64,000 bases of DNA from Haloprofundus salilacus (GCF_020150815.1 NZ_CP083723.1:62001-126000), one strand, 5' to 3'; positions 5,254 through 48,681 are shown, numbered from the stretch's first letter. Notes: generated by a model from the letters alone, not told the origin. Numbers and translations are program-made.

Positions 5254-5305
5254 ACAATAACACACAAACCCCACGCTTATGTGTGTTCGGATACACCAAT
5301 AGTTG

Positions 5306-6637
5306 ATGAAGCGAGCCAACACGTTTGAGGTGGTTCCCCAGTCCGACGAGGACGAGGAGTTGCTTCGACGCCTGTTGGACGCTTCTGCCGCTCTCTGGAA
5401 CGAAATCAACTACGAGCGCCGCGAAAACTACGCCGACCCAGACGGAGATGTATGGGCCATTAGCGAGTATCGCGGTCGCTACGGCGGTGTTCTCGGTGCG
5501 TCTACGGTTCAGCAAATCGAACGCAAGAACCGCGAAGCGTGGCGGTCGTTCTTCAGCCTCAAGAAGAAGGGCGAAGCCTACGGCAAACCCGGGTACTGGG
5601 GCAACGCCGAGGACGGCCGAGAACTCCGCACGTACATCCGCAATACGTCGTACTCCGTCGAGTGGGGCGAATACTCTCGTCTTGAAATCCTCGTCGGCAA
5701 TGACCTCAAAGACGAGTACGGTCTTGGATACCGCGAACGTCTCCGGGTCGAAGTCCGGGGCGACCCCAACTGGGACGAGTACGACAAGCAGGGCCGGTTA
5801 GAGTTGTTCTTGGACGAGCAAGCACAATCGTTCAGGGCCTTTCAGCCAGTTACTATCGACGATTCTCGGCTGGCATCACCACTGGCTTCGGAAGAAGCCG
5901 CTCTGGATATTGGTGCTAACAACCTCGTCGCCTGTACGACCACGACCGGCACGCAACTGCTGTACGAAGGGCGCGACCTGTTCGAGCGATTCCGCGAGTC
6001 GACGCGGGAAATCGCCCGCCTCCAATCTCTGTTGGAGGACGGTCGATACAGTAGCCACCGTATCCGACGCCTGTACGACCGACGTACCAAGCGCCGTGAC
6101 CACGCTCAAGACGCACTCGCCCGCGACCTTATCAAACGTCTATACGACGAAGGCGTTTCGACAGTGTATGTCGGGGCGTTGACGGACGTACTCTCAACGC
6201 ACTGGTCGGTGGAGGCGAACGCGAAGACGCACAATTTCTGGGCGTTCCGAGCGTTCGTGAATCGACTGGCGTGTACCGCCGAAGAATACGGTATGTCGGT
6301 CGAGGTTCGGTCGGAGGCATGGACGAGTCAGGAGTGTCCCAACTGTGGTTCGACGGAGGATACGACGCGCCACAGAGACACGCTGACGTGTCCGTGTGGA
6401 TTCGAGGGGCATGCAGACCTCACAGCGTCAGAGACGTTCTTGAGACGTCATCAGAACTCTTCGAGTTCTGATTGGCGAACGAGACACGGAGTATCTCGTC
6501 AACGGCAGACGACGGTAACACGGTCGATGGCACGGCCTGTATGCCTCAAGTGGGACGACCATGATTGGTCAGAGTCATCACGCTCAGTTCCCAACGAGGA
6601 GCATACGAACCCGCAAGTTGCCTCCGTGGGTCGGTAA
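5306..6637 (+). CDS. tnpB: TnpB, RNA-guided nuclease of an IS1341-type element
   Basis: 443 residues from the ATG at 5306. The C-terminal half shows the split RuvC fold: first aspartate in AALDIGANN (about residue 201), a zinc ribbon CPNC and CPC (about 344-364), and the last aspartate in GHADLTAS (about 371). The middle catalytic segment reads [10 protein letters not shown]. Canonical TnpB has an acidic residue (Glu) here, and haloarchaeal copies as I recall them have VYVGDLT, so the alanine suggests reduced or lost cleavage. The last 60 residues are low-complexity and overlap the omega RNA region. TnpB uses an RNA made from the right end to cut matching DNA and retain the element. Confidence 0.85.
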
Positions 6638-6692: not shown

Positions 6693-6795
6693 GTGACCCT
6701 GACGATTGATTACAGGTCGTTCGCGTTAAGTGACTTGGCGGGGCCTTTGCATTTGTAGTTACAGCACAGCCATTTTCGACTGGCTGTACAAGATA

Positions 6796-6834
6796 TGCGC
6801 GATCTATTCAGCATGGTTGCTAAAACCCACTCAG
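6796..6834 (+). repeat. Left half of a type B array repeat (R7-left)
   Basis: TGCGCGATCTATTCAGCA followed by a type B middle (GTTGCTAAAACCCACTCAG) that matches R9 closely and then stops. The matching right half is at 10583-10616, on the far side of the kinase/regulator genes. Confidence 0.7.
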
Positions 6835-6852
6835 ACGAACAGTTCATCGAAT

Positions 6853-6864
6853 CCATATAAATGG
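6853..6864 (+). promoter_or_regulatory. TATA box upstream of the PAS kinase gene
   Basis: CCATATAAATGG is the best archaeal TATA match in the gap before the kinase gene. It lies about 80 bases from the chosen ATG, so the transcript would have a leader. Confidence 0.35.
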
Positions 6865-6939
6865 CGCTTTATTGACGAGAAGTGTAGAACCGCACAGTGT
6901 ACGTTGAACTTATCAGACCCGGAGTCCACTCGCATTCGT

Positions 6940-9900: not shown

Positions 9901-10278
9901 ATCACAGCCGAGGACCTCCCCCAAGTCTACGGCGATGCCAGCCAGCTCAATCAAGTCTTCCAGAATCTGCTGGACAACTCGATCGAGTACAGTGGCGACG
10001 AACCACCGCGAGTGCACATCTCTGCCGAGCGGGATGGCAACCAGTGGATTATTTCGGTCAGCGACGAGGGAATCGGAATCGACCCTGTCGACGCCGATAA
10101 GGTGTTCGAGGTGTTCCAGAGCCTCCACGGCCACGAAGATTCCGGAACCGGGATCGGGTTGGCGTTAGTCGAGCGCATCGTCGAGCGCCACGACGGAGAT
10201 ATCTGGGTGGACTCTACGCTCGGCGAAGGCGCCACCTTCTCGTTTACCTTGCCAGCAGTGAGTAAAACCGATGAGTGA
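6940..10278 (+). CDS. Multi-PAS sensor histidine kinase
   Basis: 1112 residues from the ATG at 6940. The frame runs back to 6730 but that part is non-protein-like and crosses the half repeat. Seven PAS domains follow one another, beginning near residues 28, 150, 271, 392, 509, 643 and 768. Three of them carry nearly the same RYRTLxENFPNGAV start, which points to internal duplication. A HisKA domain has the phospho-acceptor His899 (AASHDLQEPLR), and a HATPase domain (about 1001-1106) has N-box NLLDNSIEYS and G-boxes DEGIGID and GTGIGLAL. No membrane segment is seen, so it is a cytoplasmic sensor, probably of redox or small ligands. A broken response regulator overlaps its 3' end. Confidence 0.9.
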   Translation: MSDQTGTDKGGFWGGDGGGQALQRCQNLVKTVSDGIYQLNADGRFVAVDDGVIGMTGYTRDFLLGEHVSVLLDKSDVARIQDVICDRLETDAGDTPYEIVIETADGARIPCELHINRLVDGDEFEGTVGVVRDITEHKESQRKLKESERRYRTLVENFPNGAVTLVDEDLQYRTVGGSPLDVAGLTVEEVEGQSVSEILPPELADELVPCYEAAFEGDSSTFQAESNDRVYQFQVVPVYDDDGDVFAALGMSQDRTEREEAQRRLAESEQRYRTLIENFPNGAVGLFNEDLEYTAVGGRLLDTLGMEPEDRIGHRIQELHPEGFLDQIEPHFRTALEGESSAFMVEYRDQYLSAYTLPVRNTNGDIYAGMVVVQDITDRKEMEQDLQRSEARFRMITENLDEIVWMATPDAQEFIYLNPAFEKVWGLDRKQLYDEPLSFLDAIHEADREHIRKQFTALSETDFDEQFRIVRPNGEIRWVHARGTRVTDGGITRIVGTGQDVTERKEQERALERALDLLERTERVADVGGWEINTKSMDVFWTDHTFDLLEVTADEEPPLEEALDMYHDEDQPNVEAAVETALDSGEPFDVEVRIRTGSDDVRWLRLQGVPETDDGDVVSLRGAAQDITKRKQREQQLEESETRFRMLAENLKEMVWISDPETRDILYINPAYEEIWARDRESLYDDPTTFLETVHSDDRERVEQSYAAVPDERFDEEYRIVQPDGAVRWLSVRADPVRSEGRERVIGIAEDVTERKERERALEESERRYRTLVENFPNGAVGLYNQNLKYTAVGGQLLDTTGVKPEDRIGSTVYDLYPDELVEEIEPYFHAALDGETNSFETEFYDRHLYAHTLPVRNADDEVFAGMLVVQDVTERREYQRQLEASNERLEQFAYAASHDLQEPLRMVSSYIQLIDQRYGDAFDEDGREFIEFAVDGADRMREMIEALLQYSRVDTRGDPFEPVDLEEVFADVSHDLQVKIQETDADITAEDLPQVYGDASQLNQVFQNLLDNSIEYSGDEPPRVHISAERDGNQWIISVSDEGIGIDPVDADKVFEVFQSLHGHEDSGTGIGLALVERIVERHDGDIWVDSTLGEGATFSFTLPAVSKTDE

Positions 10279-10580
10279 CCGCGAGGACGCCCGGCGGATG
10301 TCCTGTTGGTAGCGGACACCCCCGGCGAAATCCGCCTCACTGAGGAGGCATTCAAAGAGGGCAATATCGCCAACTCCCTCCACGTGGTGACCGACGGTGC
10401 CGAGGCGCTCGAATTCATCTACGAGCGCGGCGACAACACAGACACACCGCGCCCTGACATCATCCTGCTGGATTTGACCCTCTCGCGAAAGAACGGCAAC
10501 GAGGTGCTCACGGAGAGACGAGATGACGATGATCCCCCGACCATTCCGGGCATCATCTTGACGAGTTCGGAGGCAGTCAG
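10271..10580 (+). pseudogene. Frameshifted and truncated response regulator receiver
   Basis: The ATG at 10271 overlaps the kinase stop (ATGAGTGA), as in a coupled operon. The frame MSDREDAR shifts after about eight codons and meets a TAG. From about 10300 another frame reads LVADTPGEIRLTEEAF and onward, including IILLDLTL with the phospho-acceptor aspartate and GIILTSSEA. It is then cut by the right half of an array repeat, losing the conserved C-terminal lysine and helix 5. The canonical start DVLLVEDNPGD is also altered. The kinase therefore lacks an intact adjacent partner. Confidence 0.75.
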
Positions 10581-10582
10581 CG

Positions 10583-10616
10583 GTTGTCTGCTGAATAGAG
10601 AGGGTGTATTCATCAG
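10583..10616 (+). repeat. Right half of a type B array repeat (R7-right)
   Basis: GTTGTCTGCTGAATAGAGAG followed by GGTGTATTCATCA: the right arm and third arm without a left arm. Joined to the left half at 6796-6834 it rebuilds one ordinary type B copy. Confidence 0.7.
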
Positions 10617-10649
10617 AACCGGTTTATAGAACTCTATTGAATAATGCGT

Positions 10650-10826
10650 ATGGTGTCAAGTTTTCCTCAAGGAGCAAGGGAGCTTGTCCTGACGCTCAGG
10701 TGGTGGATTTTGGCAACTCTCCTTCTCGCTTTCTCAGCCCTTTTTCTTCCACTTTCAGAATCTCCGTTTTTCTTCGGAGCCTCTCTCGCCCTTCTCTTGT
10801 GGCTACTTGGAAAATATCTCTCTTAG
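10650..10826 (+). CDS. Small two-helix membrane protein (58 aa)
   Basis: Two hydrophobic segments (WWILATLLLAFSALFLPL and FFFGASLALLLWLLGKYLS) make up most of the product. A TATA-like GGTTTATAGA at 10621-10630 lies about 25 bases before the ATG at 10650, which I prefer over the in-frame ATG at 10644. It is the only gene between R7-right and R8. No family is recognised. Confidence 0.55.
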   Translation: MVSSFPQGARELVLTLRWWILATLLLAFSALFLPLSESPFFFGASLALLLWLLGKYLS

Positions 10827-10883
10827 AGGTCTGTACTGGGTGATTTGAGTCGTTCGTACCGAACGCGGAGTTCGTAACTCGAT

Positions 10884-10971
10884 GCGCGCCCTCTGTTCAG
10901 CAGTCGGTGAGCGAACTCCTCAACCAATGTCAGTAACGGAGTGCAAGATACAGAGGGTGAATTTATCAGCA
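10884..10971 (+). repeat. Array repeat R8 (type A)
   Basis: Left arm CTCTGTTCAGCAG, right arm GTGCAAGATACAGAGGG, third arm TTTATCAGCAG. Confidence 0.85.
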
Positions 10972-30415: not shown

Positions 30416-33400
30416 TCACTTGTTCACACGTGATTGGTCGCGTAACCACTCAACCGGATACATCGCCGTCAACCCGGGTGTGTCGATGCGGAACTGCTGT
30501 GGTGGTGTTGTTTTCGCATAAGTTTTCTCGACGCGTGGGTCGCCCTCAAGCGGGTCGTTGAGCGCTTGCAGTACGGCGTGGCCTGCAGACTGGGTCATGA
30601 CGACCCAGATTGCGTCGTCGACATTGCAGTCGGCGATTTTGTCGAAGTCCTCGGGGGCGGCTCGGCGATTATCGTGATTCACTCGCTCGGCTTCGACGGC
30701 AACGACGATGGTGCCATCAGCATCGAGCCCTGCGATGTCGAGGCGACGGCGGTCATCGATATCGTAGTACGGAACCACTTCGACGACCGACGACTCCGGG
30801 TTTTCGAGGTACGCTTCGATGAGGTGCTGTCGGGCCACCTCGATGGCGCGGACGTGCTGGCTCGACTCTTCGAGATCGCCTGTGCTGTGACCGTAGTCGA
30901 CGCCTTGGCGGTAGCTCTCACCGATTTCGTTTCGACCAGCAGGCGTAACCGAATAGAGCCGATGTGGGTGGTCGGTATCGTGTCGGAGCAGTCCGTCCTC
31001 GATGAGGCTCTCGACAGCTTCTGACTCAATTGCAACGTATTCCTGTAAGCGGAGCATCGAATCATGGAGCAGGTCGTATTCGAGTGGGTCGTATCGCAGT
31101 TGCTGGGCATTGTACACGGCCTGGAGGAACAGCAACTGTGTATCCGTGCACGCCGAGACGGCTCGCTCTTCTGGAGTGAGCTTGAGGTTTACCTCGCAGA
31201 TCGGCACGTCATCGCGGTCGATGTCCTGTAGTGACGAGCAGCAGGCGATTGCACGCTGCATTCCCTCGGTGGTCGGGTCGTAGCGATTGTGACATTCCGT
31301 ACAGCGAAGCGCATGAATGGATGGGCTGTAGCGAACCGTCGGCGGCATCCGGTTCGTGTATGGAAGCGCAGAGTCGACTCGTTGCTGTGGGAGTGGTGAC
31401 TCATCGCCGTCTGTGTCTGTCTCTGTGTCAGCCGACGTCTCCGCATCGCCTTCGTCGGGTGTGACCGTATTCGGGAGAGTGAGCGTCAGCCCTGAGTGGT
31501 GCATCGTTCGCTCACGGACGGTCATCATCACGTCCTCGAACGCCTGCAGTTCTGTGTCAGTGAACGGGTCGTCGCCTGCAGGGTCGCCAGGTGGCGGAGC
31601 GGCTGACCTGACGAGAAACGGACGGGGCTCAGGGTCGTCGAAGCCAGCAGGGAGGCTGACGAGCCATTGTCCGCGACGAAGGGCACGCAATCGATTTCCG
31701 ACGGCCTGTGCATCCATGTCGTCGGTAGCGAGCCGTTCGGCAAGGCGGCGATCGACAGGGACGTTACCCGTGATGAACGTGGAGATGTTGTTGAGCACTT
31801 CGTCGTAGACATCGTCGCCATAGGCGCGCAGTTGGGCGGGAAACTGCATCGAAAGCGTCACTGAGCAGTCGAAGCTGCGTGATTGGGCGAGTAACTGTTT
31901 GAAGAGGTCGGAGACGGCGATGCTCGCGGCCTCTTCGATATAGAGGTTGACGAGCGGCTGTTTGGAGTTCTTACTGCGTTTCGAGCGCCGACGCAGTGCC
32001 GTCCAGAGATTCGAGAGGATGACGAGTGTGAGGACGCGCTGGGCCTCACTGCGGAGGTCACCCGTATCGAAGATGATGACCACGTGTTCGTTCAAATAGT
32101 GGGCGAGGTCGAACGCGGGAGTGTCTGGGTCGTCTGTTGCGACGTGATTGAAGATACGGGCGAGACGTTGATCGAGCGGGATTTTCTCGATTCGATTCGC
32201 GACACCCTGCATGATTTCGTCGAACGACCGAGGGCGATTGGCGACAACGCCTGCGAGCATGCGTTCGAGGTCTCCGTCGGAGACCGCAGGAGCAGCCTGG
32301 CGTTCGTGCATCTGTCGGACTGCAGTGTGGAGGTCGCGGTGTGAGAAGGCGTCACACCCACTGACGGGGTCGAACATCGCCTTCGTGAGATACCGGATGA
32401 TATCCGGGGAGCGAACGGCTTGCTCGAAGCGGTCTTTGCCCATGATTTGAGAGAGAATTTCGATGTAATGGTCGACCGTATCCTCGACAGCGGTGGTTCG
32501 AGGAACACCTGCTTCGAGTTCATCGCGGATATCGAAAAACGAGAACGCAGGGAGGACGTCCGCACAGTCAAAGTAGTGGACGTTCTCGAGCGTGCCGTAG
32601 GTCGCATAGTGCGCTTGGAGGTAATCGATGGTCATGCCGTCGCCTTTCGGGTCGATGAGGATGTCTGCGCCCGCAGTGGCGGCGTGATTGTGCAAGAGTG
32701 CGTTGATGGTGCTCGTGGATTTGCCCGCACCCGTCCTGCCGAACCAGCCGACGTGTAGTGGCTGCAGACTCGGTGGAAGCACGAGCGACTCGGTGGCTGG
32801 GGTGCCGTCTTGGGTGAGCGGATTCCCGAGGAGCATTCCTGGGCCACGGTAGTGAGCGAGGAGGTCGGTTGGTGGTCGTGCGAGTGCAGTGCGTTCTCTG
32901 GGAGTTGGCGCGAGTGCACGGACGCCTGCTGCGGTGAGCGCAGTGCCACTGACGGCGAAGAAGTTCGGAAGTTCGCTTGCGTCGGCGACGATACCCTGAC
33001 TGCGTGGTGTGCGCCACGGTAACCGATTCGTGAACGCTGTGTATGTCGGTGGGTGAAACGTCCGCTCACACATCTCCGAGAGGACGTTTCTCGCGGTCTG
33101 CCCGCTCAACACCCGTCCTGTGAGTTCATACGATGTCCGACTGACGGCCGCAAACACCGAGGCGAGTTCGTGGGCTGTCGCTGTGACGTTGCTATTGCTG
33201 CTGTCGTCGCGTGCAATAACGGCGATGCGGGCGTTCACGTCGAACGACCGGTGTGTTTCGCGGACCGCGAGTTCGTCGAGTCTGGTTTCGTCACTCTGTG
33301 GAATCGGGAGGTCGTCGGGTGCGCCGAACACGGCAGTCGACAGTTTGCCACCGAGTGTGTCCTGATACGTCTCGAGCGCTTTCCGCCGGACGTCGGCTGC

Positions 33401-34012
33401 AGCCGTCCAATCGGGTTTCGGGCGGAGCAGTGTCTGATAGATGATTGGGCAGTCACTCGCTGCCATCGTCTCGATGATGGCTGCAAGCGGGATTCGCGTA
33501 TGCGTCTGGCTGTGGTTGCTGTCGCTGGTTTCGAACTCGCTGAAGGGCGTCAGTCGTGTTTGCCAGTCTTTGGGCCGTTCGACGCAAGCCTCGTACTCGA
33601 CAGCAGCGATGCAATCGGAATCATCGGCTGACTCATCCGCTGAGTCTGAGCCAGACCAGCGTGCTTTGAATTCATCGGCGGTTCGGGTCGTCCGTGTGAG
33701 TTCGTATGAATCGGGGAACAGCCCTCTGAGGACGCGTTCGAGTGCGTCGGTCGCTTCGGGATCGTCGACGCCGAACAGATACGTGAGAGTCGTCTCACCG
33801 TTTCCGTCGGAGATGAGCAAACACTCGATAGTTGGTGATGAAGGGCGATTGAAGAGCCTGAACCCTGCCGGATTGCTCTTTTGTGGTAGTTGGTGGAGAC
33901 GGCGCACGTGTGTCGCAACGGTCTCTGTGTTCAGCGATTCGTCTGCTGGCCGAACGCGAATATAGGTTCGTGCCTGCTCGAGCGGTACTGGAAGGTCGGT
34001 GTCATCAGCCAT
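30416..34012 (-). CDS. VirD4/TraG-like ATPase with C-terminal winged-helix and nuclease-like domains
   Basis: 1198 residues, twice the usual size of a coupling protein. Residues about 1-410 form an N-terminal region with no recognised fold. The ATPase core follows: Walker A GRTGAGKST near 426 (HVGWFGRTGAGKSTSTINAL), ILIDPKGDGM, Walker B LYIEEAAS near 690 and sensor-like QFPAQLRAYGDD. Near residue 904 is a cysteine cluster (CTECHNRYD, CC, C). Next come a winged-helix (YDLLHDSMLRLQEYVAIESE, VTPAGRNEI) and, around 1075-1160, a PD-(D/E)xK-like pattern (RRLDIAGLDADGTIVVAVEAE). No membrane helix is evident. Likely role: feeding DNA into a conjugation channel, or an HerA-type DNA-processing function. 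Confidence 0.8.
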   Translation of the reverse strand: MADDTDLPVPLEQARTYIRVRPADESLNTETVATHVRRLHQLPQKSNPAGFRLFNRPSSPTIECLLISDGNGETTLTYLFGVDDPEATDALERVLRGLFPDSYELTRTTRTADEFKARWSGSDSADESADDSDCIAAVEYEACVERPKDWQTRLTPFSEFETSDSNHSQTHTRIPLAAIIETMAASDCPIIYQTLLRPKPDWTAAADVRRKALETYQDTLGGKLSTAVFGAPDDLPIPQSDETRLDELAVRETHRSFDVNARIAVIARDDSSNSNVTATAHELASVFAAVSRTSYELTGRVLSGQTARNVLSEMCERTFHPPTYTAFTNRLPWRTPRSQGIVADASELPNFFAVSGTALTAAGVRALAPTPRERTALARPPTDLLAHYRGPGMLLGNPLTQDGTPATESLVLPPSLQPLHVGWFGRTGAGKSTSTINALLHNHAATAGADILIDPKGDGMTIDYLQAHYATYGTLENVHYFDCADVLPAFSFFDIRDELEAGVPRTTAVEDTVDHYIEILSQIMGKDRFEQAVRSPDIIRYLTKAMFDPVSGCDAFSHRDLHTAVRQMHERQAAPAVSDGDLERMLAGVVANRPRSFDEIMQGVANRIEKIPLDQRLARIFNHVATDDPDTPAFDLAHYLNEHVVIIFDTGDLRSEAQRVLTLVILSNLWTALRRRSKRSKNSKQPLVNLYIEEAASIAVSDLFKQLLAQSRSFDCSVTLSMQFPAQLRAYGDDVYDEVLNNISTFITGNVPVDRRLAERLATDDMDAQAVGNRLRALRRGQWLVSLPAGFDDPEPRPFLVRSAAPPPGDPAGDDPFTDTELQAFEDVMMTVRERTMHHSGLTLTLPNTVTPDEGDAETSADTETDTDGDESPLPQQRVDSALPYTNRMPPTVRYSPSIHALRCTECHNRYDPTTEGMQRAIACCSSLQDIDRDDVPICEVNLKLTPEERAVSACTDTQLLFLQAVYNAQQLRYDPLEYDLLHDSMLRLQEYVAIESEAVESLIEDGLLRHDTDHPHRLYSVTPAGRNEIGESYRQGVDYGHSTGDLEESSQHVRAIEVARQHLIEAYLENPESSVVEVVPYYDIDDRRRLDIAGLDADGTIVVAVEAERVNHDNRRAAPEDFDKIADCNVDDAIWVVMTQSAGHAVLQALNDPLEGDPRVEKTYAKTTPPQQFRIDTPGLTAMYPVEWLRDQSRVNK

Positions 34013-34177
34013 CTAGTGGCCTCGGCTTCTTCAGATTCTATTGAATACGCATGGGGCGCGATAGTGTGGTTACGTCTGCAACAGAGTGTGAATTCAAGAG
34101 ACGAACGGCAGACGGCTGAGGAGTTCAATACGATTCGAGGTAGCACTCCTACTCTCAAGCAACGAGATGCAGATACT

Positions 34178-34493
34178 GAGAGAGTTCATTTCGTGTGCTT
34201 TCTCGGAAATGATGGAGTCGGGGTTGGGCTGCTGAGAGCACACGAAATGTACAGTTCGCTAATTTACTCTCTGTCTCTTAGGCTTGTGGTCGATCCGAGT
34301 GTGGATGCAGACCTGCGAGAGTTCATTTCGTGTGCTTTTCGCGCTACTGTATGTTGATTCTGGGACGATTTGTGAGCACACGAAACGTAGTACTCGTAAC
34401 TGATGCTACACCCCCTGTTTGAGACAAAATTGAGAAATACGGGATCCAAAAATGCCTCCGGTACGAGGCAAGAGACAGTACGTTTCGTGTGCT
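34178..34493. other. Iteron cluster, candidate replication origin
   Basis: Five copies of RTTTCGTGTGCT alternate in orientation: 34188-34199 (+), 34237-34248 (-), 34325-34336 (+), 34375-34386 (-) and 34482-34493 (+). Two plus copies sit in an identical 22-base repeat starting GAGAGTTCATTTCG (34180 and 34317). The cluster abuts the 3' end of the Orc1/Cdc6 gene, and no gene occupies 34013-34497. Alternating origin-recognition boxes beside an orc gene are typical of haloarchaeal replicon origins, although here they lie downstream of the gene. Confidence 0.6.
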
Positions 34494-34497
34494 TTCG

Positions 34498-35421
34498 CTA
34501 CGTTTGGGTTTCTTGTTCTATCTTCTCACGTGTTTCAAGTACGAGGTCTGCGTCGAGATCTAACTCGTATTCATAGTATTGGCCACCACTCAGACCCTTG
34601 TTTCGCTCATAACGTTTGGTGAACCCCAGCATATGGAGATCAGAAAGATTGTCTTGAACACTTTTTAGCGTCGTAAGTGCGTCTACGCCCCACGAGGCAG
34701 CAACCGTTTCGTAGTGTGACTGGATGGTCTTCGAACGGACTCGTTTGTTGCCCTGTTTGTCAAGGCGCGCAATTGTCTCTAAAATCAGTTGCGTGTGTTC
34801 TGTCTGGTCACGTATCCGGTTGCTCAGTCGACCACGTTGGACGAGCTCTCGGGCTTCCTCAATGTGTTTGTCCGTTACGCATAGCTCTCCGTTTTTTTCG
34901 GCAACCTCAGAGCCCACTCGGAGGAGATCAATTGCTTGGCGTGCGTTCCCCATGTCCTGAGCTGCAATTGCAGCTGTCATCGTAATTGCCGACATATCGT
35001 ACCCACCATCGATGAACGCGCGTTCAGCACGATCGAGAAGAATCGTTTTGAGTTCGTGTGCATCGTACGGCGAGAACGAGATCTCGGTTTCCATCAGCGT
35101 GTCTTTGACTTTTAGAGAGAGACCCGACCTGAACGTGTAGTTGTTGCTAATTCCAATGATGCCGATACGCGCATCTGTGACGTGCCCATTCGATCGGGCT
35201 CGTGGCAGTTCGTACAGAAGCGTATTCGCATCTGTGAGGTGATCAATCTCGTCGAAGACGAACAGATGCGTGCCACCTATCCGGTCCAATTGACTATAGA
35301 GTTCTTCGAACGCATCGCCTGTCCCCAACCCTCGTTTTGGGAACTCGCTTGCATCTACTGGGAGAAGACCATTTACCAGGCGTCGAACAGCCATGAATAG
35401 CGTCTTTCCGTTGCAGTTCAC
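34498..35421 (-). pseudogene. Orc1/Cdc6 initiator lacking its Walker A region
   Basis: 307 residues are visible. Walker B is FVFDEID, sensor 1 GIIGISNN, sensor 2 GNARQAIDLLR, and a winged-helix domain follows (LILETIARLDKQGNKRVRSK, LSDLHMLGFTKR). Full-length haloarchaeal Orc1/Cdc6 is about 400 residues and has a GxxGxGKT loop roughly 30 residues before the VNCNG segment. Here the frame opens at VNCNGKT, preceded by a TAG about nine codons upstream. The ATP-binding end is missing, so it is either a relic or an unusual DNA-binding fragment. It may still bind the adjacent iterons. Confidence 0.7.
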
Positions 35422-40274: not shown

Positions 40275-40805
40275 GTGACGGATGACTACATCGACCTACC
40301 TGATTCAGAAGTAGTCGTAATGTCTGATATGAATTGCTCTGACTCCGCCAACGTTGGCGAGAGTAGTTTGTCGACAACCGAACAGTATGGATGTACATTT
40401 CCATCGCTCCCCGGCTTCCGATGTCAATACGACTCTGTTCTCCAAGGGTCCGTGCTTGTCTCGTTACTCCGAATAATAAGCACGCTCGCAGTTGTCGCCC
40501 TATTCGCGTCACAACCCGTCCTCGCGCAGACAACTGGGACTGCCTTCTGTGATACGGACATGGCACAAACGATCAAGAATCTCTTCACCCTCATCCAGTT
40601 CGGTGGTCCACTCGTCGGTGGAGTAATCGCACTCGGCACGACGGTTGCGCTCCCGACAGTGCGGCGCGCTGATTTGAAACAAGAACTCAAAGAAGCTCGT
40701 AACCAAGCCGTCGTATGGGGTGTCATCGTCGCCCCGCTCGGAACGGCGATCATTGGCTTCCTTCTCACCGAAGTCGTCTCTGGAGGCGTAAGTTGCGGGT
40801 TCTAA
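40275..40805 (+). CDS. Small double-TM protein of the VirB-like operon
   Basis: 176 residues if the GTG at 40275 is used; an ATG at 40320 is an alternative and the conserved part may start later. A signal-like helix (IISTLAVVALFASQPVLAQ) is followed by a mature part with two helices (LIQFGGPLVGGVIALGTTVA and AVVWGVIVAPLGTAIIGFLL) separated by a basic loop. Signal plus two short helices is the layout of VirB2/TrbC-type pilins. It overlaps or nearly abuts the following gene, consistent with an operon. Confidence 0.6.
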   Translation: MTDDYIDLPDSEVVVMSDMNCSDSANVGESSLSTTEQYGCTFPSLPGFRCQYDSVLQGSVLVSLLRIISTLAVVALFASQPVLAQTTGTAFCDTDMAQTIKNLFTLIQFGGPLVGGVIALGTTVALPTVRRADLKQELKEARNQAVVWGVIVAPLGTAIIGFLLTEVVSGGVSCGF

Positions 40806-42508
40806 GCCCCAGACTGTCTGGAGGCGTTCTCGTCTTCGCACTGGCGGTGCTTGCACTCACCCTGACTGTGACTCCGTCAGCTGCGCACCCATCTAACAAA
40901 TCCGACCACGGGCTGAACGAGACGACCTACTGCACGCTGTGGGCAGGTGATGAGGATGTCTCGAACGTCAGTGCACTCGAAAGCCGTCCGAACGAGTCGT
41001 CAGCAGAACTGTGTACGATTGCTGCGGGAACGGATATCCCACTTGACACACCACCCAAAGCGGTCGAGCAGTGGAACCGTGGCGACCTACAGGAGTTCCC
41101 AACTACGGATGCAACTCAGTCGGTTCATCCACTGAACGCAACGCTCAGCGATGGGCGGTTCATCAAAGATGCCTACACCGAGATTTTTGCAGTTCAGCCC
41201 TCGACGCGCGCAAGACTGTCCCCGACTGACCAACCGCTGTACGTCGCCTCGAATGGAACGCTTCTTGGAACTGTCGACTATCGCGTGGCTGTTCCAACAG
41301 CGGAGACAACTGATAATCGCCGGACGAACTGGGAGGTAGTTGACCACGAAATCGTCGGGACACGGCTGCTCGTTGATGGTGACGTAGAATCAACGGCATC
41401 CGGGACTCACACGCCTGAACTACCCTACTCACTGGATAGCCAGACAGACGAACCACACTCACTCACGCTCGTCGCAGAAATCGCAGTCACAGTAGAAAGA
41501 CGCGTTTCTGTCTGTACTGCTCGCGACGCACGAGGTACCTGTCTCGAATGGAATACCCAGCGTGAACGCCGGACGGAGACACATATCGTCCGCGATAGCA
41601 CCGATGTGGTCGCATACGACCTCACCATCTCGGGCTATCACGCGGTGTATCCCAACGGCGATCTCGGTCTCGTCGTCTACAAGAATCAGCCGTGGCTTGG
41701 CTACTCTCTGCCAAATGGTGACGTCCGTGGTGTATGGCGCTTTTACTCTGCACGAGACCCAGAGTGGGATACACTCGTTACGAGCACGGATGAGGGTCAG
41801 ACAGTCGACCACTCTTCGCTGCATCCGCTACAAGTGCATGCCTATCCAATCGAGACCGGTCCAACACCATCTCCACGTCGGACAGTGACGATTCTGGAGA
41901 CCTACGGTGTGGAGACACAGCCACCGACACTGCCCGAGACTGTCCTGTTGGGCGCTACTGACGAACCGTATACTGCAAGCTACGGAATTGCGACTCGAAC
42001 CAAGTCGACCGAGAACGACCTCACAGCAGTGACGGCGTACGGCCTCGTTCGTGGTGTCGAAGCCGATGCAAGTGAATCGTCCTTTGTCACAGTCCCGCTC
42101 AACGAGAGCGAACTCACGCTTGACGTCCTGAACACGACTGAAGACTCGGTCACGGTTCGCGTGAGCCTTCGAGATACGCAGACGGGCGAACCAATCAACA
42201 CCCACGGCCGAGAGGAATACGTCGTTCTCCAGGGCCAGCGTATGAATACCAGTGACAATGGAACGCTGACGACGACGCTCTCACAATCGACAGGCAGCGT
42301 TTCTGCACGGTACGAGCCTGGTCGTTGGTGGCGGTCAGTTCCCGGCTATGTAGGTGATTCGGACGTGGTGTACGTACGGGGGCCGATACAGTCGACGCTC
42401 TCTGTTCTCTACGAGGTCGCCGTTCCCGTGTCGCTCTTCTTGCTGAGCGTGTTCTTCATCGACCGAATCACTGGGTGGCGTGTGTGGCCTCCGTGGAGGC
42501 GGTTGTAA
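40793..42508 (+). CDS. Exported surface protein of the conjugation-like operon
   Basis: The most likely start is the TTG at 40793, preceded by GGAGGCG, overlapping the previous gene by 13 bases. The product has about 571 residues: a signal peptide (GVLVFALAVLALTLTVTPSA), a large extracellular region with many N-x-S/T sequons and paired cysteines (VSVCTARDARGTCLEW), and one C-terminal membrane anchor (VPVSLFLLSVFFIDRITGW). No enzymatic motif. The stop overlaps the next ATG by one base (TAATG). Perhaps a contact or channel component facing outward. Confidence 0.7.
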   Translation: MRVLSPRLSGGVLVFALAVLALTLTVTPSAAHPSNKSDHGLNETTYCTLWAGDEDVSNVSALESRPNESSAELCTIAAGTDIPLDTPPKAVEQWNRGDLQEFPTTDATQSVHPLNATLSDGRFIKDAYTEIFAVQPSTRARLSPTDQPLYVASNGTLLGTVDYRVAVPTAETTDNRRTNWEVVDHEIVGTRLLVDGDVESTASGTHTPELPYSLDSQTDEPHSLTLVAEIAVTVERRVSVCTARDARGTCLEWNTQRERRTETHIVRDSTDVVAYDLTISGYHAVYPNGDLGLVVYKNQPWLGYSLPNGDVRGVWRFYSARDPEWDTLVTSTDEGQTVDHSSLHPLQVHAYPIETGPTPSPRRTVTILETYGVETQPPTLPETVLLGATDEPYTASYGIATRTKSTENDLTAVTAYGLVRGVEADASESSFVTVPLNESELTLDVLNTTEDSVTVRVSLRDTQTGEPINTHGREEYVVLQGQRMNTSDNGTLTTTLSQSTGSVSARYEPGRWWRSVPGYVGDSDVVYVRGPIQSTLSVLYEVAVPVSLFLLSVFFIDRITGWRVWPPWRRL

Positions 42509-43362
42509 TGGCGCGAACAAACGGCGTCTCTCGTCGAACACTGCTCAAAGCAGGCGTTCTCGGTAGCGTCACCGCCCTTGCTGGGTGTACCCAAGATGAC
42601 GATGCAGCAGACGCAACAACATCCACGAGCGCCTCTGAGAATTTGGTCTTTCGTGATGTCTCGTTCGATGGTCCGTATCTAATCGTACGGTTACGAGAGG
42701 ACCATGCAGTCACGAAACTCAATCTCATTGCACCAGATGGCAGTTTGTTTACACGGACGGGTGTTCCAGAGGGTGTGACAAGAGCGAGTCTTCAATTGTT
42801 GGATGTGGGCGCTGGAAAGCACTACATTCCAGGACAGCACAGATTAACTGCGGTTACTCCTGGACAAGATTCGGCTTCAACATCTGTTGATCTCGTACCA
42901 GAACTCAAAATTGTCAATGTGAGGCAGTACTCGTCAGGCCGATCAACACCGGGAAATCGGGGTAATGTGGTTGTGAGAGTCGAAAACAGGGGAACTGGTC
43001 CAACCTGGATATACAACATTGCTTATGAGAACGCACTGTATGACGCAGCGAATAGTCTCGATGTTTCACCGAATCTTCCAACCGCTAATCTTGCTCTCCC
43101 GAAGACTGCAGCTGAGACAGTTCTGCATCCGAATGAATCTCAGGAGTTTATGGGATCTATTCCCCCATTTCTTATTACAAATTCAGAGGCCTGTGATGGC
43201 CGGTCATCGAAGACCGTCGTTATCGCACAAGCGGCAGGGAACAGTACTACACGAAGACTAGTTCGGGCGTCGTATTCGGGGGAACTCCTAAGCGCAAATT
43301 TCCAAGCGAGCTGTAGCGAGGTTTCAATCGAGATGCTTCGAAGAGAGGCCGAGAATGCGTAA
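42508..43362 (+). CDS. Tat lipoprotein of the conjugation-like operon
   Basis: 284 residues from ATG 42508. Twin-arginine signal SRRTLLKAGVLGSVTALAGC with lipobox LAGC, an acidic serine/threonine linker and a beta-sandwich-like body. A C-terminal part contains VVVRVENRGTGPTWIYNIAY. The stop lies inside the next gene, which starts at 43355, giving an eight-base overlap. GC content and codon choice drop in this gene relative to its neighbours, suggesting a separate origin. Confidence 0.75.
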   Translation: MARTNGVSRRTLLKAGVLGSVTALAGCTQDDDAADATTSTSASENLVFRDVSFDGPYLIVRLREDHAVTKLNLIAPDGSLFTRTGVPEGVTRASLQLLDVGAGKHYIPGQHRLTAVTPGQDSASTSVDLVPELKIVNVRQYSSGRSTPGNRGNVVVRVENRGTGPTWIYNIAYENALYDAANSLDVSPNLPTANLALPKTAAETVLHPNESQEFMGSIPPFLITNSEACDGRSSKTVVIAQAAGNSTTRRLVRASYSGELLSANFQASCSEVSIEMLRREAENA

Positions 43363-44707
43363 GTGGACAAAATGTGCTCTCCTTATCGGGCTACTCATCT
43401 TGATTGCTAATCCTGTTGCGGCGCAGTCTGGGGATAGCAGTGGCGGCGCACTCGGTGATGTAATTGTAGCTGCACTCCAAGAGGCACTTAAAGCCCTGTT
43501 CGCACCTATCGAGGGCATTATTGAAGAATACGCAGGCGATCTTGTGGAGACAGTTGTTGAAACGCCTGCACCCGATTCGGTCTTCGATGAGCCCGGTAAT
43601 GGTGCCTGGCCAGGTATCTATGATTACTACTGGAATGCGATTATCCCTCTCTCATTATTCCTCTGGGGACTCTCTATAGGGGTAATCATATTCTTTGAGG
43701 CGACGAGTAATCTGTTCAGCGGCTACCACCGCTCGAAGCTCAAGAAGCGGGCATTTACTGGGCTCTTAGGAATTCTCTCGTGGTGGTGGATTGACGCGAT
43801 TTCGCGACAACTGATTCAAGAGCTATCGGTCTACCTTATCCCCGACCTCTCACAAATTTCGCTCTTTCAGACGTTGTCGTTTAGTGCAATGGGAGTTCTT
43901 GGAATAGTTGTCACTTTGGCAACTGATTTTGTCCTATTCGCACTTGTCGCAATGATTTACTTTGTCAGACATATTGTCCTCTATCTTTTCACCCTGTTCA
44001 TGCCGATACTCATCGCATTCTGGATACCGGGCGTCGGCCCGTTTTCGCTCGTCTCTGGGTTCATGAAGCGACTGGCAGGATTCTACGTGCCGTTTCTCTT
44101 CATGACCGTTCCTGTCGCACTGTTGTTCCGAGTCGGTGAGATCATGGGTTCGAGCTTCGAGCTCTCGATGGGCGGTCTCGGTGCGTGGCTCACCGCGCTC
44201 ATCATTCCTATCGTTGCGGTCGTCTCGCCGTTCGTGCTCTTCTGGCAGGCCGGTGCGCTGTTCTTCATGACCGACCGGATGGCACAACGTGTCTCGACGC
44301 AGCGTGCTCGAACGCGTGTCAATCAAACCATTCAGACAGGACGAGGCGGCGCACAAGGCGGACAGAACTTCATGCGCGGTGTACGCGGCCAACCTGCGAT
44401 ACGAGCCGACGGTCAAACGGTTCTCAATTCAGGTAACTCACGCGCCCACGCAACCGGATCTCGGCTCAGCGCATCAGGGTCGCAACTTCGACAACGATTC
44501 AGCAGAGACGCCGACACAGTTCCAGCATTACCCTCTGGGTCGAACACAACCCGATCTCGGCCAGAGTTCTCGGTTACAGACAGCCGCAGTCAGCGCTTCG
44601 AGAACCTTCGAAATCCGGAGACTTGGACATCTTCTCGCTGGGCAGACTCGCGCGAGCGTGAGCACCGTGAGCCGACGAATACCGATGACCGACCAGACAA
44701 CGAGTAA
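43355..44707 (+). CDS. VirB6/TrbL-like polytopic membrane protein
   Basis: 450 residues. A signal (CALLIGLLILIANPVAAQS) is followed by about six helices, among them IIPLSLFLWGLSIGVIIFF, LFALVAMIYFVRHIVLYLF and LGAWLTALIIPIVAVVSPFV. A long hydrophilic C-terminal tail (residues about 310-450) is rich in Arg, Ser and Thr. VirB6 proteins share this helix arrangement and large soluble tail. They form the inner-membrane channel. The next gene starts three bases after its stop. Confidence 0.7.
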   Translation: MRKWTKCALLIGLLILIANPVAAQSGDSSGGALGDVIVAALQEALKALFAPIEGIIEEYAGDLVETVVETPAPDSVFDEPGNGAWPGIYDYYWNAIIPLSLFLWGLSIGVIIFFEATSNLFSGYHRSKLKKRAFTGLLGILSWWWIDAISRQLIQELSVYLIPDLSQISLFQTLSFSAMGVLGIVVTLATDFVLFALVAMIYFVRHIVLYLFTLFMPILIAFWIPGVGPFSLVSGFMKRLAGFYVPFLFMTVPVALLFRVGEIMGSSFELSMGGLGAWLTALIIPIVAVVSPFVLFWQAGALFFMTDRMAQRVSTQRARTRVNQTIQTGRGGAQGGQNFMRGVRGQPAIRADGQTVLNSGNSRAHATGSRLSASGSQLRQRFSRDADTVPALPSGSNTTRSRPEFSVTDSRSQRFENLRNPETWTSSRWADSREREHREPTNTDDRPDNE

Positions 44708-44709
44708 CC

Positions 44710-45723
44710 ATGCAACACACTGATCCAACCAAACGCATTCCAAAATCGCTCGGTACCGACCCAAAACTATTCGGCACGTACACACTGACGGACCTCGCAG
44801 TCGCGTTGTTCCCGGGCGTGCTCGTCATCTTGTTCACGCAGGTCGTGCTCTCTCCGTCGACGGCGATTGCTGGCTACCGATTACAGACATTCACCCTCCC
44901 CGTTGCAGGAGGCGCGATCGCCATCGGGGCGTTGTTCGTCTATCTCACGCCAACGTACACGACAAGTCTCGATTGGTTCGCGACGTTCATTGGATTCCAT
45001 CGACGCGCGAAAGAGCTCACTCACGAAGACGCCAAACAGTACACACAAATCGAACGTGTCCATACTGAACGAGGCGCCATCGAGCGAACTGATGGCGCTC
45101 TGCTTGGGCTTGTCCACGTCACGCCACCGACGATGGCGCTCGCAACTGATGCGGAATGGGCAACGAAAGCGACGGCGTTCGAAGACTTCTGCAACACTGT
45201 CGTCGAATTCCCAATTCAAATCTATTCGACGACGCAGCCGTTTCCCGCAGACGAGTATCTCGCCCAGTACGAATCTAGACTCACCGATTCGGATGTGAAG
45301 GAGAACCCGAGACTTGCCGCACTCATCGAACACTACATCTCGTGGTACGCAGCAGACCTCGACGAGCGGCGGATGACGATTCGCGACCACTACGTCGTCG
45401 TCTCGGTAACACCCGCTGAGGTTCGCTTCGAGCGTGAGAGTCTCACCGAGAAACTCGCAGCCGTGCCTCTTCTCGGATTATTCGTCCAGGCACGATTCGC
45501 ACCCCGCATCGAAGAGCAACGTGAGGCGATGTTCGATGCATTAGACGAACGACTGCGGCGAATCGAAGGCGGACTCCGTGGGATAGAAGGCTGTAATGCA
45601 CACCGTGTCGACACTGGAGATGCGACGCAACTCATCTGTGAGTTCTGGGCAGGCGAAGAACGCGACTATCAGGATATCACTCGCGTGTTGCGGACGCGGC
45701 CACTCGTCGGAGGCCGCGAATGA
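44710..45723 (+). CDS. PrgI/VirB3-like membrane protein
   Basis: 337 residues. The N-terminal region has the PrgI/VirB3 signature: a short cytoplasmic PTKRIPKSLGTDPKLFGTYT, then two helices (LAVALFPGVLVILFTQVVL and PVAGGAIAIGALFVYLTPTY). The soluble remainder resembles the N-terminal portion of VirB4/TraC proteins (ALLGLVHVTPPTMALATD), as if VirB4 were split over two genes. Its stop overlaps the VirB4-like ATG by four bases (ATGA), indicating coupling and probable complex formation. Confidence 0.7.
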   Translation: MQHTDPTKRIPKSLGTDPKLFGTYTLTDLAVALFPGVLVILFTQVVLSPSTAIAGYRLQTFTLPVAGGAIAIGALFVYLTPTYTTSLDWFATFIGFHRRAKELTHEDAKQYTQIERVHTERGAIERTDGALLGLVHVTPPTMALATDAEWATKATAFEDFCNTVVEFPIQIYSTTQPFPADEYLAQYESRLTDSDVKENPRLAALIEHYISWYAADLDERRMTIRDHYVVVSVTPAEVRFERESLTEKLAAVPLLGLFVQARFAPRIEEQREAMFDALDERLRRIEGGLRGIEGCNAHRVDTGDATQLICEFWAGEERDYQDITRVLRTRPLVGGRE

Positions 45724-47786
45724 ACTGGAAGCGACTCCGATTTTGGCGTCGTGCTGAAGGTGAAAGCCGTGAGGGGAGTGGCGAGTCTGAGGCAGTCTCT
45801 GTCGACTACGAGACAGAACACGGTCGTCTCACGACCGCTTCGGACATCCATCAGACGATCATCGCGCCATCCGATATCGAGCGGACACCGAACGCGGTTC
45901 GAACGGGCGAACAGTGGGCGCGGACGCTCTGGATTGGCGAGTATCCTGATGCACCAGCTGATGGGTTGTTTGAGACGCTGTATTCGAGTTCAGAGACCCG
46001 AACGACGGATATCTCGCTTCATCTCACGCCACGGGATACACACCGGACACTCGACTCGCTTGAGAATCGTATCGAAGACCTCGAAGCCGACTACGAGTAT
46101 CTCGAAGAAAAGCGACGGGCGGGCGCTCGCGGTATTCAAAAAGATCTCGAAGACTACCGCCAAATGTACGATGTTCTCCGGAATACGTCGATGAAGGCGT
46201 TCGACACGTCGATGTATCTCTCGGTTCGTGGACCCACTCCTAAAGAGATTCATTCAGACGCAGTCGCGAACACGGCACGACGTTCGCCTGCGAATCTCAC
46301 GCCGATTACACCGCGATGGGCACAACTGGACTCGCTCGTCTCTGCGAGTCCAGTTGGCGTTGACCGACTCAACGACTCGATGCAGACTCGAACCCCGATG
46401 TTGGGAGGGGCGGTCGGTGCGATGTTTCCCTTCGTTGCAGGCGCGTTTGCCGAACCAGGAATTGAGTACGGAACGTACGCACTCAACGAGAGTCCACTCA
46501 TCTTGGACCGATTCAACCGTGAGACGGGCTACTGTACGATGGTCATCGGTAAACTCGGCGCAGGGAAATCGTTCTCGACGAAACTCCAGCTCGTTCGCCG
46601 AGCGATGTACGACCCCGAAACGGTCATCATCATGCTCGATCCACTGCAGGGCTTTGCAGGTGTGAACGCCGCACTCGGTGGCGAGCGTGTGACAGTCGGG
46701 GGGACGCGTGGATTCAACCCACTCGAACTCAAGCCAACACCTGGAGACGTTCTCGCGGACGTCCCCGACCTCGATCCGTGGTCAGAGCAAATCTCGTGGG
46801 TGCTGACGTTCTTCGAGACGTTCTTCACCCACGTCGCGACCCATCCGCTCGGTGACCGAAAGCAGACACTTCGACGGGCGATTCAAGACGCCTACGAACG
46901 CAACGGTATCACCCGCGACCCAGCAACGCACAGCTGTGAGTCACCCACCGTACGAGACGTCATTACCGTCCTTGAGGACCTGCTTGATGACCCGACTACG
47001 TTTGGCTACGCAACCGCGGGCGAACAGCGAAGCGTTGCTGACGATGCTCAGTCTCTATTGAAGGACCTTCGACCGTCGTTTCACGAGGGCGGTGACCTCG
47101 CCAATCTCGCGAAACCAACGGAGTTCGACCTCGATTCGAGTGTCGTCTACCTCGACCTCCACCAAGAGGAGGGAACGCGCGGGCGGACAGAGACCAGTCT
47201 GATGATGCAGGTGTTGTTCAACGCCGTCTACGAGCGTGCGAAAGGCACTGAGAAACGCGTTGTGTTTGCGATTGACGAAGCCCACTATCTGATGAACGAT
47301 ACGACCTCGCTTGAGTTCTTAGAGACAGCAGTTAGACACAGTCGACACTACGACCTCTCGTTGCAGTTCATCACACAGACGGGCGGGGAGTTCGCTCTTA
47401 CACCGGAGGCGCGGACGATTGCGAATCTCTGTTCGATGACGCTCATCCATCGCGTTCAAGAAGAAGCCGAGACGCTTGCTGACTGGTTCGGATTGAGTGA
47501 GCGCGAAGTAAACTGGGTACAGACGGCAAAGGCCGGTAACGACGAGGACGGCTATTCAGAAGCACTTCTCAATATCGACGAGGAGGGCTGGTTCCCGCTT
47601 CGGGTTCGTGCGAGCCCGTTCGAGGCAGACGTTATCGCGAATGGATTCTCGCAGAGGGATTTACCGGATTCATCGGTGGCTACGAAGCATGACATCCAGA
47701 CGGTGACTCAGAGGAATGGCCAAACACTCTCAGTTTCTCAGTGTGACGGCGGCGAGGAGAACTCCACCGACCAGGAGATGCGGTGA
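45720..47786 (+). CDS. VirB4/TraC-like conjugation ATPase
   Basis: 688 residues. Walker A GKLGAGKS near residue 278, Walker B VVFAIDEAHYLM near 514, and an arginine-rich motif RHSRHYDLSLQFITQTGGEF after it. A coiled-coil (LENRIEDLEADYEYLEEKRR) precedes the ATPase domain at about 115-150. VirB4 proteins power pilus assembly and substrate transfer from the inner face of the membrane. Short N-terminal length fits with the missing part being carried by the previous gene. Confidence 0.85.
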   Translation: MNWKRLRFWRRAEGESREGSGESEAVSVDYETEHGRLTTASDIHQTIIAPSDIERTPNAVRTGEQWARTLWIGEYPDAPADGLFETLYSSSETRTTDISLHLTPRDTHRTLDSLENRIEDLEADYEYLEEKRRAGARGIQKDLEDYRQMYDVLRNTSMKAFDTSMYLSVRGPTPKEIHSDAVANTARRSPANLTPITPRWAQLDSLVSASPVGVDRLNDSMQTRTPMLGGAVGAMFPFVAGAFAEPGIEYGTYALNESPLILDRFNRETGYCTMVIGKLGAGKSFSTKLQLVRRAMYDPETVIIMLDPLQGFAGVNAALGGERVTVGGTRGFNPLELKPTPGDVLADVPDLDPWSEQISWVLTFFETFFTHVATHPLGDRKQTLRRAIQDAYERNGITRDPATHSCESPTVRDVITVLEDLLDDPTTFGYATAGEQRSVADDAQSLLKDLRPSFHEGGDLANLAKPTEFDLDSSVVYLDLHQEEGTRGRTETSLMMQVLFNAVYERAKGTEKRVVFAIDEAHYLMNDTTSLEFLETAVRHSRHYDLSLQFITQTGGEFALTPEARTIANLCSMTLIHRVQEEAETLADWFGLSEREVNWVQTAKAGNDEDGYSEALLNIDEEGWFPLRVRASPFEADVIANGFSQRDLPDSSVATKHDIQTVTQRNGQTLSVSQCDGGEENSTDQEMR

Positions 47787-47793
47787 GGTATCG

Positions 47794-48681
47794 ATGAATC
47801 CGAACGCGCTCCCGATCGAACTTCGTCATCGCCCGCAGTGGGTCTGCTGGGCCTCTCGAAAGCGAGACGGCAAGCAAACGAAGGTTCCACTAAATCCTGC
47901 GAGTGGTACGTTCGCCTCGACTGCCGATGCAGCTACGTGGGGGACCTTCGACGAGGCGTTGGCTCGTGCTACTCAGAATGGTATCTCGGGAATTGGTTTC
48001 GTCTTCACCAGTGACGATCCGTATGTCGGTATCGACCTCGATGACTGTCGTGACCCCGATGCGGTGACGCTAAATGAAGACGCCATCGAGATTGTCAGGC
48101 ATCTCCGGTCATATACTGAAGTCTCGCCATCAGGAACGGGAGTACATATTATCGCTCGGGGGACCCTCCCCAGTGGCCCACGTCGACGCGGGATGGTTGA
48201 GATGTACGACGAAGGCAGATTTTTCACGATGACTGGCAATCATTTGCTAACGACGCCCGAACAGATCTGTGAGCGTTCGCGCGTGATTCGAAGCGTCCAC
48301 GCTACCTTCGTTTCCACCTCTGGATCAACTAATTCAGCGAGACTATCTACCAAGCAAACCCGTGAGCTAACGTTCACCCCGCAATTGGATGATGAAGAAA
48401 TAATCCAACGAGCGCAGTCAGCAGCGAACGGTGAGAAATTCTCGGCGCTTTGGAACGGCGATATCAGTGGATACGACAGCCATTCGGAGGCTGATATGGC
48501 ACTGTGTTGTTTGCTTGCGTTTTGGGCGAATCGTGACGCGTCTCGCGTCGATCGACTCTTTCGGCAGTCCGGGCTGGTTCGACCGAAGTGGGACGAGGTC
48601 CACTACGCTGATGGGGCTACCTATGGGGAACGGACGGTTGAGCGTGCCTGTGTCCATGTGAGCGAGCAATATTCCGAGTAA
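47794..48681 (+). CDS. Plasmid/phage-type primase-like protein (NrS-1 polymerase-like)
   Basis: 295 residues from ATG 47794; in-frame codons back to 47716 overlap the VirB4 gene and are not used. The primase-type core includes RPQWVCWASRKRDGKQTKVP, IGFVFTSDDPYVGIDLDDC, SYTEVSPSGTGVHIIARG and FFTMTGNHL. The C-terminal helical domain contains SEADMALCCLLAFWANRD and ERACVHVSEQYSE. This combination is found in bifunctional primase or helix-bundle proteins of mobile elements. It starts seven bases after the VirB4 stop, so it belongs to the operon. Confidence 0.75.
   Translation: MNPNALPIELRHRPQWVCWASRKRDGKQTKVPLNPASGTFASTADAATWGTFDEALARATQNGISGIGFVFTSDDPYVGIDLDDCRDPDAVTLNEDAIEIVRHLRSYTEVSPSGTGVHIIARGTLPSGPRRRGMVEMYDEGRFFTMTGNHLLTTPEQICERSRVIRSVHATFVSTSGSTNSARLSTKQTRELTFTPQLDDEEIIQRAQSAANGEKFSALWNGDISGYDSHSEADMALCCLLAFWANRDASRVDRLFRQSGLVRPKWDEVHYADGATYGERTVERACVHVSEQYSE

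Follow-up and report, generated by a model that had tools for sequence, protein, structure and literature searches.

The 64,000-nucleotide stretch of Haloprofundus salilacus DNA analysed here (GCF_020150815.1, NZ_CP083723.1:62001-126000; C1:62001-126000, hereafter called "the window") encodes, on its minus strand at 30416..34012, a coupling ATPase of 1198 residues with an ATG start. The protein joins a VirD4/TrwB-like motor to a tail with a winged helix and a PD-(D/E)xK-like domain. It is the single family copy in the host genome (3.73 Mb, two contigs), and the fusion of motor and tail is a family-wide architecture, not peculiar to this genome. We propose that the family serves a haloarchaeal type IV secretion system (T4SS) as its coupling ATPase, with a DNA-processing enzyme built in, and that it would recognise, cut and export DNA and so take over part of the relaxase job. 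We put the chance that this proposal is right at about even.

The initiation of conjugation in archaea still awaits an explanation, since archaeal conjugative plasmids have been reported without any recognised relaxase (PMC9905601, PMC12857230). The fusion, found in most of the haloarchaeal genera sampled, is a concrete and mutable candidate, with its residues named and a candidate target site at hand in this lineage. Coupling proteins are already known, and it is the family-wide nuclease-like fusion, and what it implies for the relaxase missing in archaea, that may be new. We found no earlier description of the fusion in the open-access papers searched; one may exist elsewhere.

Motor and tail of the coupling ATPase

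The motor domain occupies residues 401 to 800, approximately (31613..32812, minus strand), with the Walker A motif at residues 425-433, the Walker B motif at residues 644-649 and a helical insertion between them. The match to Pfam TrwB_AAD_bind, with 24.8 bits against a cut-off of 20.5, places the motor in the VirD4/TrwB type, as a preliminary description of the window had proposed. The Pfam TraG-D_C and DUF87 matches of the coupling protein are slightly under their cut-offs, and the NCBIfam VirD4-like conjugation models remain below theirs; among these, the VirD4-like model CD1115 gives E=7e-8, yet falls far under its own cut-off. Among the Pfam matches with E up to 1 there is no FtsK_SpoIIIE, and the protein itself has no Pfam relaxase match that would bring in a catalytic tyrosine. 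No transmembrane segment was detected in the coupling protein (no 19-residue stretch exceeds 1.6 on the Kyte-Doolittle scale), and the hydropathy maximum of the N-terminal region (residues 1-400; 32813..34012, minus strand) is 1.31 over 19 residues. The coupling ATPase is most likely soluble and part of the T4SS.

The length of 1198 residues, which had been singled out as unusual, is indeed large in comparison with bacterial coupling proteins but usual for the haloarchaeal family, whose members are usually about 1150-1500 residues long. In four shorter members (G008, G162, G192 and G219; about 800-890 residues), the match spans the motor and the tail and not the N-terminal region, and the family tail therefore appears more constant than the N-terminus.

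In the tail, the cysteine cluster CxxC-x16-CC-x13-C (residues 904-939; 31196..31303, minus strand) is a probable zinc site. The five cysteines C904, C907, C924, C925 and C939 are kept in all 32 tails of the subfamily to which the window gene belongs (type C), and the cluster is absent from the main plasmid-borne subfamily, in which L006-L008 were looked at. Residues 946-1034 (30911..31177, minus strand) are predicted by AlphaFold to form a MarR-like winged helix, with VIA-align Z scores of up to 7.7 to the MarR family. Both the cysteine cluster and the winged helix had been noticed in the preliminary description, and both are borne out.

The PD-(D/E)xK-like nuclease domain follows at residues 1045-1196 (30425..30880, minus strand), with E1049, D1092, E1107, E1109 and K1125 as its putative active-site residues. 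The string quoted in the preliminary description, DIAGLDADGTIVVAVEAE, corresponds to residues 1092-1109 and contains the motif D1092-x14-E1107-x-E1109. Among 72 distinct homologous tails, G1045, D1046, H1053, D1092, E1107, E1109 and W1136 are invariant and D and E are always separated by 14 residues, while E1049 and D1122 are each kept in 71 and K1125 in 70. In the 38-row alignment behind the tail model, the other tails share 23-72% identity with the window tail, and identity per column averages 43%. In the AlphaFold model of the tail (predicted local distance difference test, pLDDT, 84.2; predicted template-modelling score, pTM, 0.81), the winged helix precedes a helix, three strands, a helix and a further strand. 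This alpha-beta-beta-beta-alpha-beta core would place D1092 on strand 2, E1107 and E1109 on strand 3, and K1125 on the next helix. In VIA-align comparisons, the domain matched EcoT38I (Z 7.4), YaeQ (7.2), SPO1766 (7.1), VC1899 (7.0), R.BspD6I2 (6.8), PaqCI (6.7), Can2 (6.6) and the nickase N.BspD6I (6.6), each match having a Z below 8, a range that can mirror a shared arrangement only. SPO1766 and some of the other matches are members of the PD-(D/E)xK superfamily.

The modest Z range is one of several points that weigh against a nuclease domain. The best Foldseek match has an E value of 3.6e-3, with none below 1e-3, and the top Foldseek matches are non-nucleases. No Pfam nuclease model reaches its cut-off on the tail, and no nuclease family was significant in the Pfam, PHROGs and PDB profile searches. 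The D-x14-ExE motif arises by chance in 18% of shuffled tails, and on its own it says little. Moreover, the third motif position holds Glu, not the canonical Lys, in all 72 tails; a Lys (K1125) sits instead in the helix after the third strand in 70 of them.

The motif nevertheless goes beyond chance, because it is invariant in the 72 distinct homologues with a D-to-E spacing of 14 in each. The assignment to PD-(D/E)xK rests on this invariance of the acids at the metal-site positions of that superfamily, together with the fact that nearly all domain matches fall within it. Variants at the Lys position of the PD-(D/E)xK motif are known within the superfamily, and BamHI, an active restriction enzyme, has D..E-x-E where others have D..E-x-K. 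The putative catalytic centre of the tail accordingly reads as a variant active site with Glu in third position. The prediction and the conservation together support a PD-(D/E)xK-fold domain with an intact-looking DNA-cutting site, at which DNA may be cleaved. The pattern claimed in the preliminary description thus stands as an invariant feature within a matching fold, although the string alone means little and its third position is Glu; the structure prediction suggested there, for comparison with nuclease folds, returned a domain with a PD-(D/E)xK-like site, and not a tail without one.

The haloarchaeal family and its second tail type

The family is carried by 124 of 194 haloarchaeal genomes and by 53 of 65 genera (whole genomes of the class). 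Relatives were found by tblastn on 145 plasmid records, haloarchaeal in every record listed, and an alignment-based scan of the GTDB genome collection located 78 loci, all haloarchaeal. By these relatives the host, too, is a haloarchaeon. Neither phages, searched by tblastn, nor viral contigs, covered by the alignment scan, contained relatives. All 145 plasmid records are typed as non-mobilizable, that is, as lacking a recognised relaxase. If our proposal is correct, relaxase-based plasmid typing misses a large class of transferable elements.

We distinguish three subfamilies, types A, B and C. Type A, the main plasmid form (about 1210-1390 residues), has the conserved order of membrane proteins, VirB6/TrbL_3 protein, VirB4, coupling gene, PriS-type primase and primase-associated protein. 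Type B (about 1380-1500 residues) has the same upstream genes and a different tail, and an NrS-1-type primase comes next in most loci. Type C, which includes the window gene and is marked by the cysteine cluster, is separate from VirB4, usually within tens of kilobases (8-14 kb in L004, L018 and L029), and often has an NrS-1-type primase nearby. VirB4 is present in 24 of the 25 genomes with window-type members, the co-occurrence on which the preliminary description had wanted a check. The tails of types A and C can be aligned over about 225 residues.

A winged helix also opens the type B tail (best Z 9.6, against winged helices of Orc/Cdc6 and MarR proteins), and PD-x14-E-x-E follows in 10 of 10 type B tails. 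AlphaFold predicts for it a helix-strand-strand-strand-helix arrangement (pLDDT 71), which is the expected element order. Two reservations apply. The structural comparison of the type B tail is filled by the winged helix, leaving the nuclease part without structural confirmation, and hhalign of the two tail types gives E 0.07 with the motifs in register, which is not significant, so that homology is not demonstrable. Should the type B fold be confirmed, a single motor would be seen to carry two unlike tails of one layout, which would argue for a functional need of the nuclease.

In L079 (12758-14377) and L084 (12710-14341), a Pox_D5-like domain closes the type B tail (E 7e-7 and 4e-6, respectively). 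This domain usually occurs in primase-helicases, and an NrS-1-type primase gene follows in L079 as in most other type B loci. In L005, L030, L031 and L033, the coupling genes of relatives are split into two open reading frames (ORFs) and are apparently decaying; L033 is a broken copy on the same chromosome as the intact L017. In about 20 window-type loci (L002, at 10046-10894, and about 19 others), an OB-fold, Ssb-like gene lies 1-10 kb upstream of the coupling gene; no such homologue was seen in the window. Some Gram-positive elements use OB-fold proteins as relaxosome helpers (PMC12857230).

Proposed transfer without a recognised relaxase

How might transfer begin in these elements? Neither of the tested relaxase families, PF03432 and TrwC, is present in the host genome, and neither accompanies the coupling family consistently. 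The absence of a visible relaxase, noted from the window in the preliminary description, thus extends to the host genome and, for the tested families, to nearly all carrier genomes. PF03432 and TrwC have no match in the host genome. PF03432 occurs in 13 of the 194 genomes, namely 5 of the 124 carriers and 8 of the 70 non-carriers; TrwC occurs in none of 60 genomes. The replication-relaxation family PF13814 gave nothing in the host and one match, below the cut-off, among 30 related genomes. A mutual exclusion of PF03432 and the coupling family was suggested by 60 genomes, in which two had the relaxase and neither was a carrier, and failed in the 194. Rep-Arvir (DUF7845), for which rolling-circle initiation has recently been demonstrated (PMC13107129), occurs in 135 of the 194 genomes. 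As the missing relaxase it was rejected: its model, PF25227, matches none of seven family-carrying plasmid records, and in the host it is represented by a broken fragment alone, located on the other contig. No relaxase is annotated on the complete plasmid pHTS96; the plasmid does carry an ArdC-like anti-restriction gene, which is compatible with single-stranded transfer and does not prove it.

A candidate cis site lies directly upstream of the coupling gene. Five exact AGCACACGAAA iterons (34176..34495), three on the minus and two on the plus strand in alternation, occupy the intergenic region 34013-34497 between the coupling gene and a Cdc6-like ORF. The extended iteron motif occurs nowhere else in the host genome, one mismatch being allowed. 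The closest relatives have related copies ahead of the same gene: L093 has three (9409-9567), with spacings of 59 and 99 as compared with 59 and 98 in the window, and L091 has two, at a distance of about 1.7 kb. The iterons may act as an operator, in transfer or in replication. A replication origin might be suspected from their position against the end of a shortened Cdc6 gene; they lack, however, the G-string by which haloarchaeal origin recognition boxes are defined (PMC3528665), and the stretches adjoining the coupling gene in the two iteron-bearing relatives contain no Cdc6 match. The Cdc6/Orc1-like ORF itself (34498-35421, 307 residues) has the lid and winged-helix domains with the N-terminal Walker A part apparently absent, and is probably a truncated initiator.

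On the basis of these features, we propose the following sequence of events. The ring of the coupling protein would dock on the VirB4/VirB6 channel, and its winged helices would bring it to a cis site on the element, possibly the upstream iterons. One or both strands would then be cut hydrolytically by the nuclease domain, and the ATPase would pump the freed DNA out; with a single-stranded substrate, the second strand would be restored by the primase. Part of the relaxase job would in this way be done without a covalent tyrosine link. Since hydrolysis of the PD-(D/E)xK type proceeds without a covalent intermediate, rejoining in the recipient would need a ligase or recombination. In a more specific form of the proposal, the coupling protein cuts for itself: the winged helix finds the transfer origin, the BamHI-like acidic site cuts it and the T4SS exports the product with no relaxase at all. 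We regard this form as possible, at clearly less than an even chance. If it were true, the occurrence of two nuclease tails on one motor would imply a repeated origin, or an exchange, of this solution.

Some further observations temper the proposal. The iterons are found in close relatives only, with none upstream of more distant family members, and a relaxase of an unrecognised kind may be encoded elsewhere. We infer, moreover, both the nuclease activity of the tail and the DNA transfer by the motor, the combination that the preliminary description had suggested.

The protein can be compared with several known systems. It shares the TrwB_AAD_bind motor, and VirB4/VirB6 partners in a T4SS cluster, with VirD4/TrwB proteins such as R388 TrwB and VirD4, but it lacks the transmembrane segment that is usual, if not universal, among them, and has instead an N-terminal region of roughly 400 residues, a winged helix and nuclease-like tail, and no relaxase partner of the tested families. 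With the relaxases (the MOB families PF03432 and TrwC; Rep_trans/NicK) it would share the job of making a strand or an end for transfer; the HUH or catalytic-tyrosine chemistry is absent, and the putative site is hydrolytic, of PD-(D/E)xK type, with no covalent DNA link. Streptomyces TraB has a C-terminal winged helix. It pumps DNA after recognising repeated cis sites and does so without a relaxase (PMC12857230), as the window protein may, but TraB is FtsK-like and acts almost alone, whereas the window motor is VirD4-like, has a T4SS and is fused to a nuclease-like domain. VirB4- and VirD4-like proteins with no known relaxase also serve archaeal conjugation in Thermococcus pT33-3 and Sulfolobus pNOB8 (PMC12857230), which belong to other archaeal groups. 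Fsx1-bearing integrated haloarchaeal elements likewise contain VirB4 and TraG/TraD/VirD4 family genes; transfer dependent on cell fusion has been proposed for them, and the available passages of that paper do not describe the tail (PMC9259645).

The most serious alternative accepts the coupling ATPase as real and has its tail trim, resect or terminate DNA, initiation being left to an unrecognised relaxase or to replication intermediates. HerA-NurA and the terminase large subunit are motor-plus-nuclease architectures, and the layout of the window protein resembles both the archaeal pair and the phage enzyme. In HerA-NurA, too, an archaeal ring ATPase is coupled to a nuclease, but NurA is a separate protein of RNase H fold, whereas the nuclease-like domain here is fused and PD-(D/E)xK-like. 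One proposal has HerA-NurA generate the single strand that archaea transfer (PMC9905601), and the adjoining primase agrees with a coupling to replication. The fused winged helix, however, suggests site recognition over unspecific trimming, and no other initiator was found on the seven plasmid records searched for Rep-Arvir or annotated on pHTS96. We consider a trimming role rather unlikely.

A second alternative takes the tail for a PD-(D/E)xK domain that has lost catalysis and is kept for DNA binding only; the protein would then be an ordinary coupling ATPase with a recognition tail. Activity has been lost in many PD-(D/E)xK domains, and the Glu in third position could be taken as a sign of such loss. 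The same Glu is known from active BamHI, and the D, E and E are invariant, and K1125 nearly so, despite the wide divergence of the tails, which makes a dead domain improbable. About as improbable, in our view, is a machine for DNA import, repair or defence (Ced-like or HerA-nuclease-like) in place of an exporter of mobile elements. Sulfolobales do import DNA by CedB-type ATPases (PMC9905601), and PADLOC reports a weak match to the generic defence ATPase mad8 (37.5 bits); the same model, however, scores VirB4 alike (35.3 bits), which indicates a generic ATPase signal, and the genes lie on plasmids with VirB4, VirB6 and primase, with a patchy distribution among genomes and an ArdC-like gene on one plasmid that has the cluster. 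Finally, that the nuclease resemblance is a chance pattern in a tail unrelated to nucleases, for which the frequency in shuffled tails might speak, is contradicted by the invariance, the matching fold and the matching structural neighbours, and has next to no probability.

The T4SS cluster and other genes of the window

The T4SS cluster of the window spans 40275-48681, and all of its genes lie on the plus strand. It begins with a small membrane protein (40275..40805), possibly VirB2/TrbC-like, for which Pfam TrbC gives a weak E=0.41 only and which is conserved in the T4SS cluster. Next come a cluster protein whose role is unassigned (40715..42508; the true start may be further in) and a possible lipoprotein (42475..43362). 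The VirB6/TrbL-like membrane protein (43355..44707; Pfam TrbL_3, E=6.9e-20) is followed by a membrane protein adjoining VirB4 (44710..45723), which is VirB3/PrgI-like by position only. The VirB4 ATPase (45720..47786) matches the solved VirB4 structure 4ag5 in phmmer (E=1.8e-15). The DNA primase of NrS-1 type (47716..48681, with a likely start near 47794) matches Pfam NrS-1 HBD (E=1.5e-28) and a PHROG DNA primase family (E=4e-94).

Elsewhere in the window, a TnpB/IS605 OrfB-like gene with a Cas12f1-like TNB domain lies at 5303-6637, and a histidine kinase of 1182 residues with about seven PAS domains at 6730-10278. An STT3/AglB-like oligosaccharyl transferase ORF at 58494-61484, on the minus strand, has a C-terminal laminin-G-like domain.

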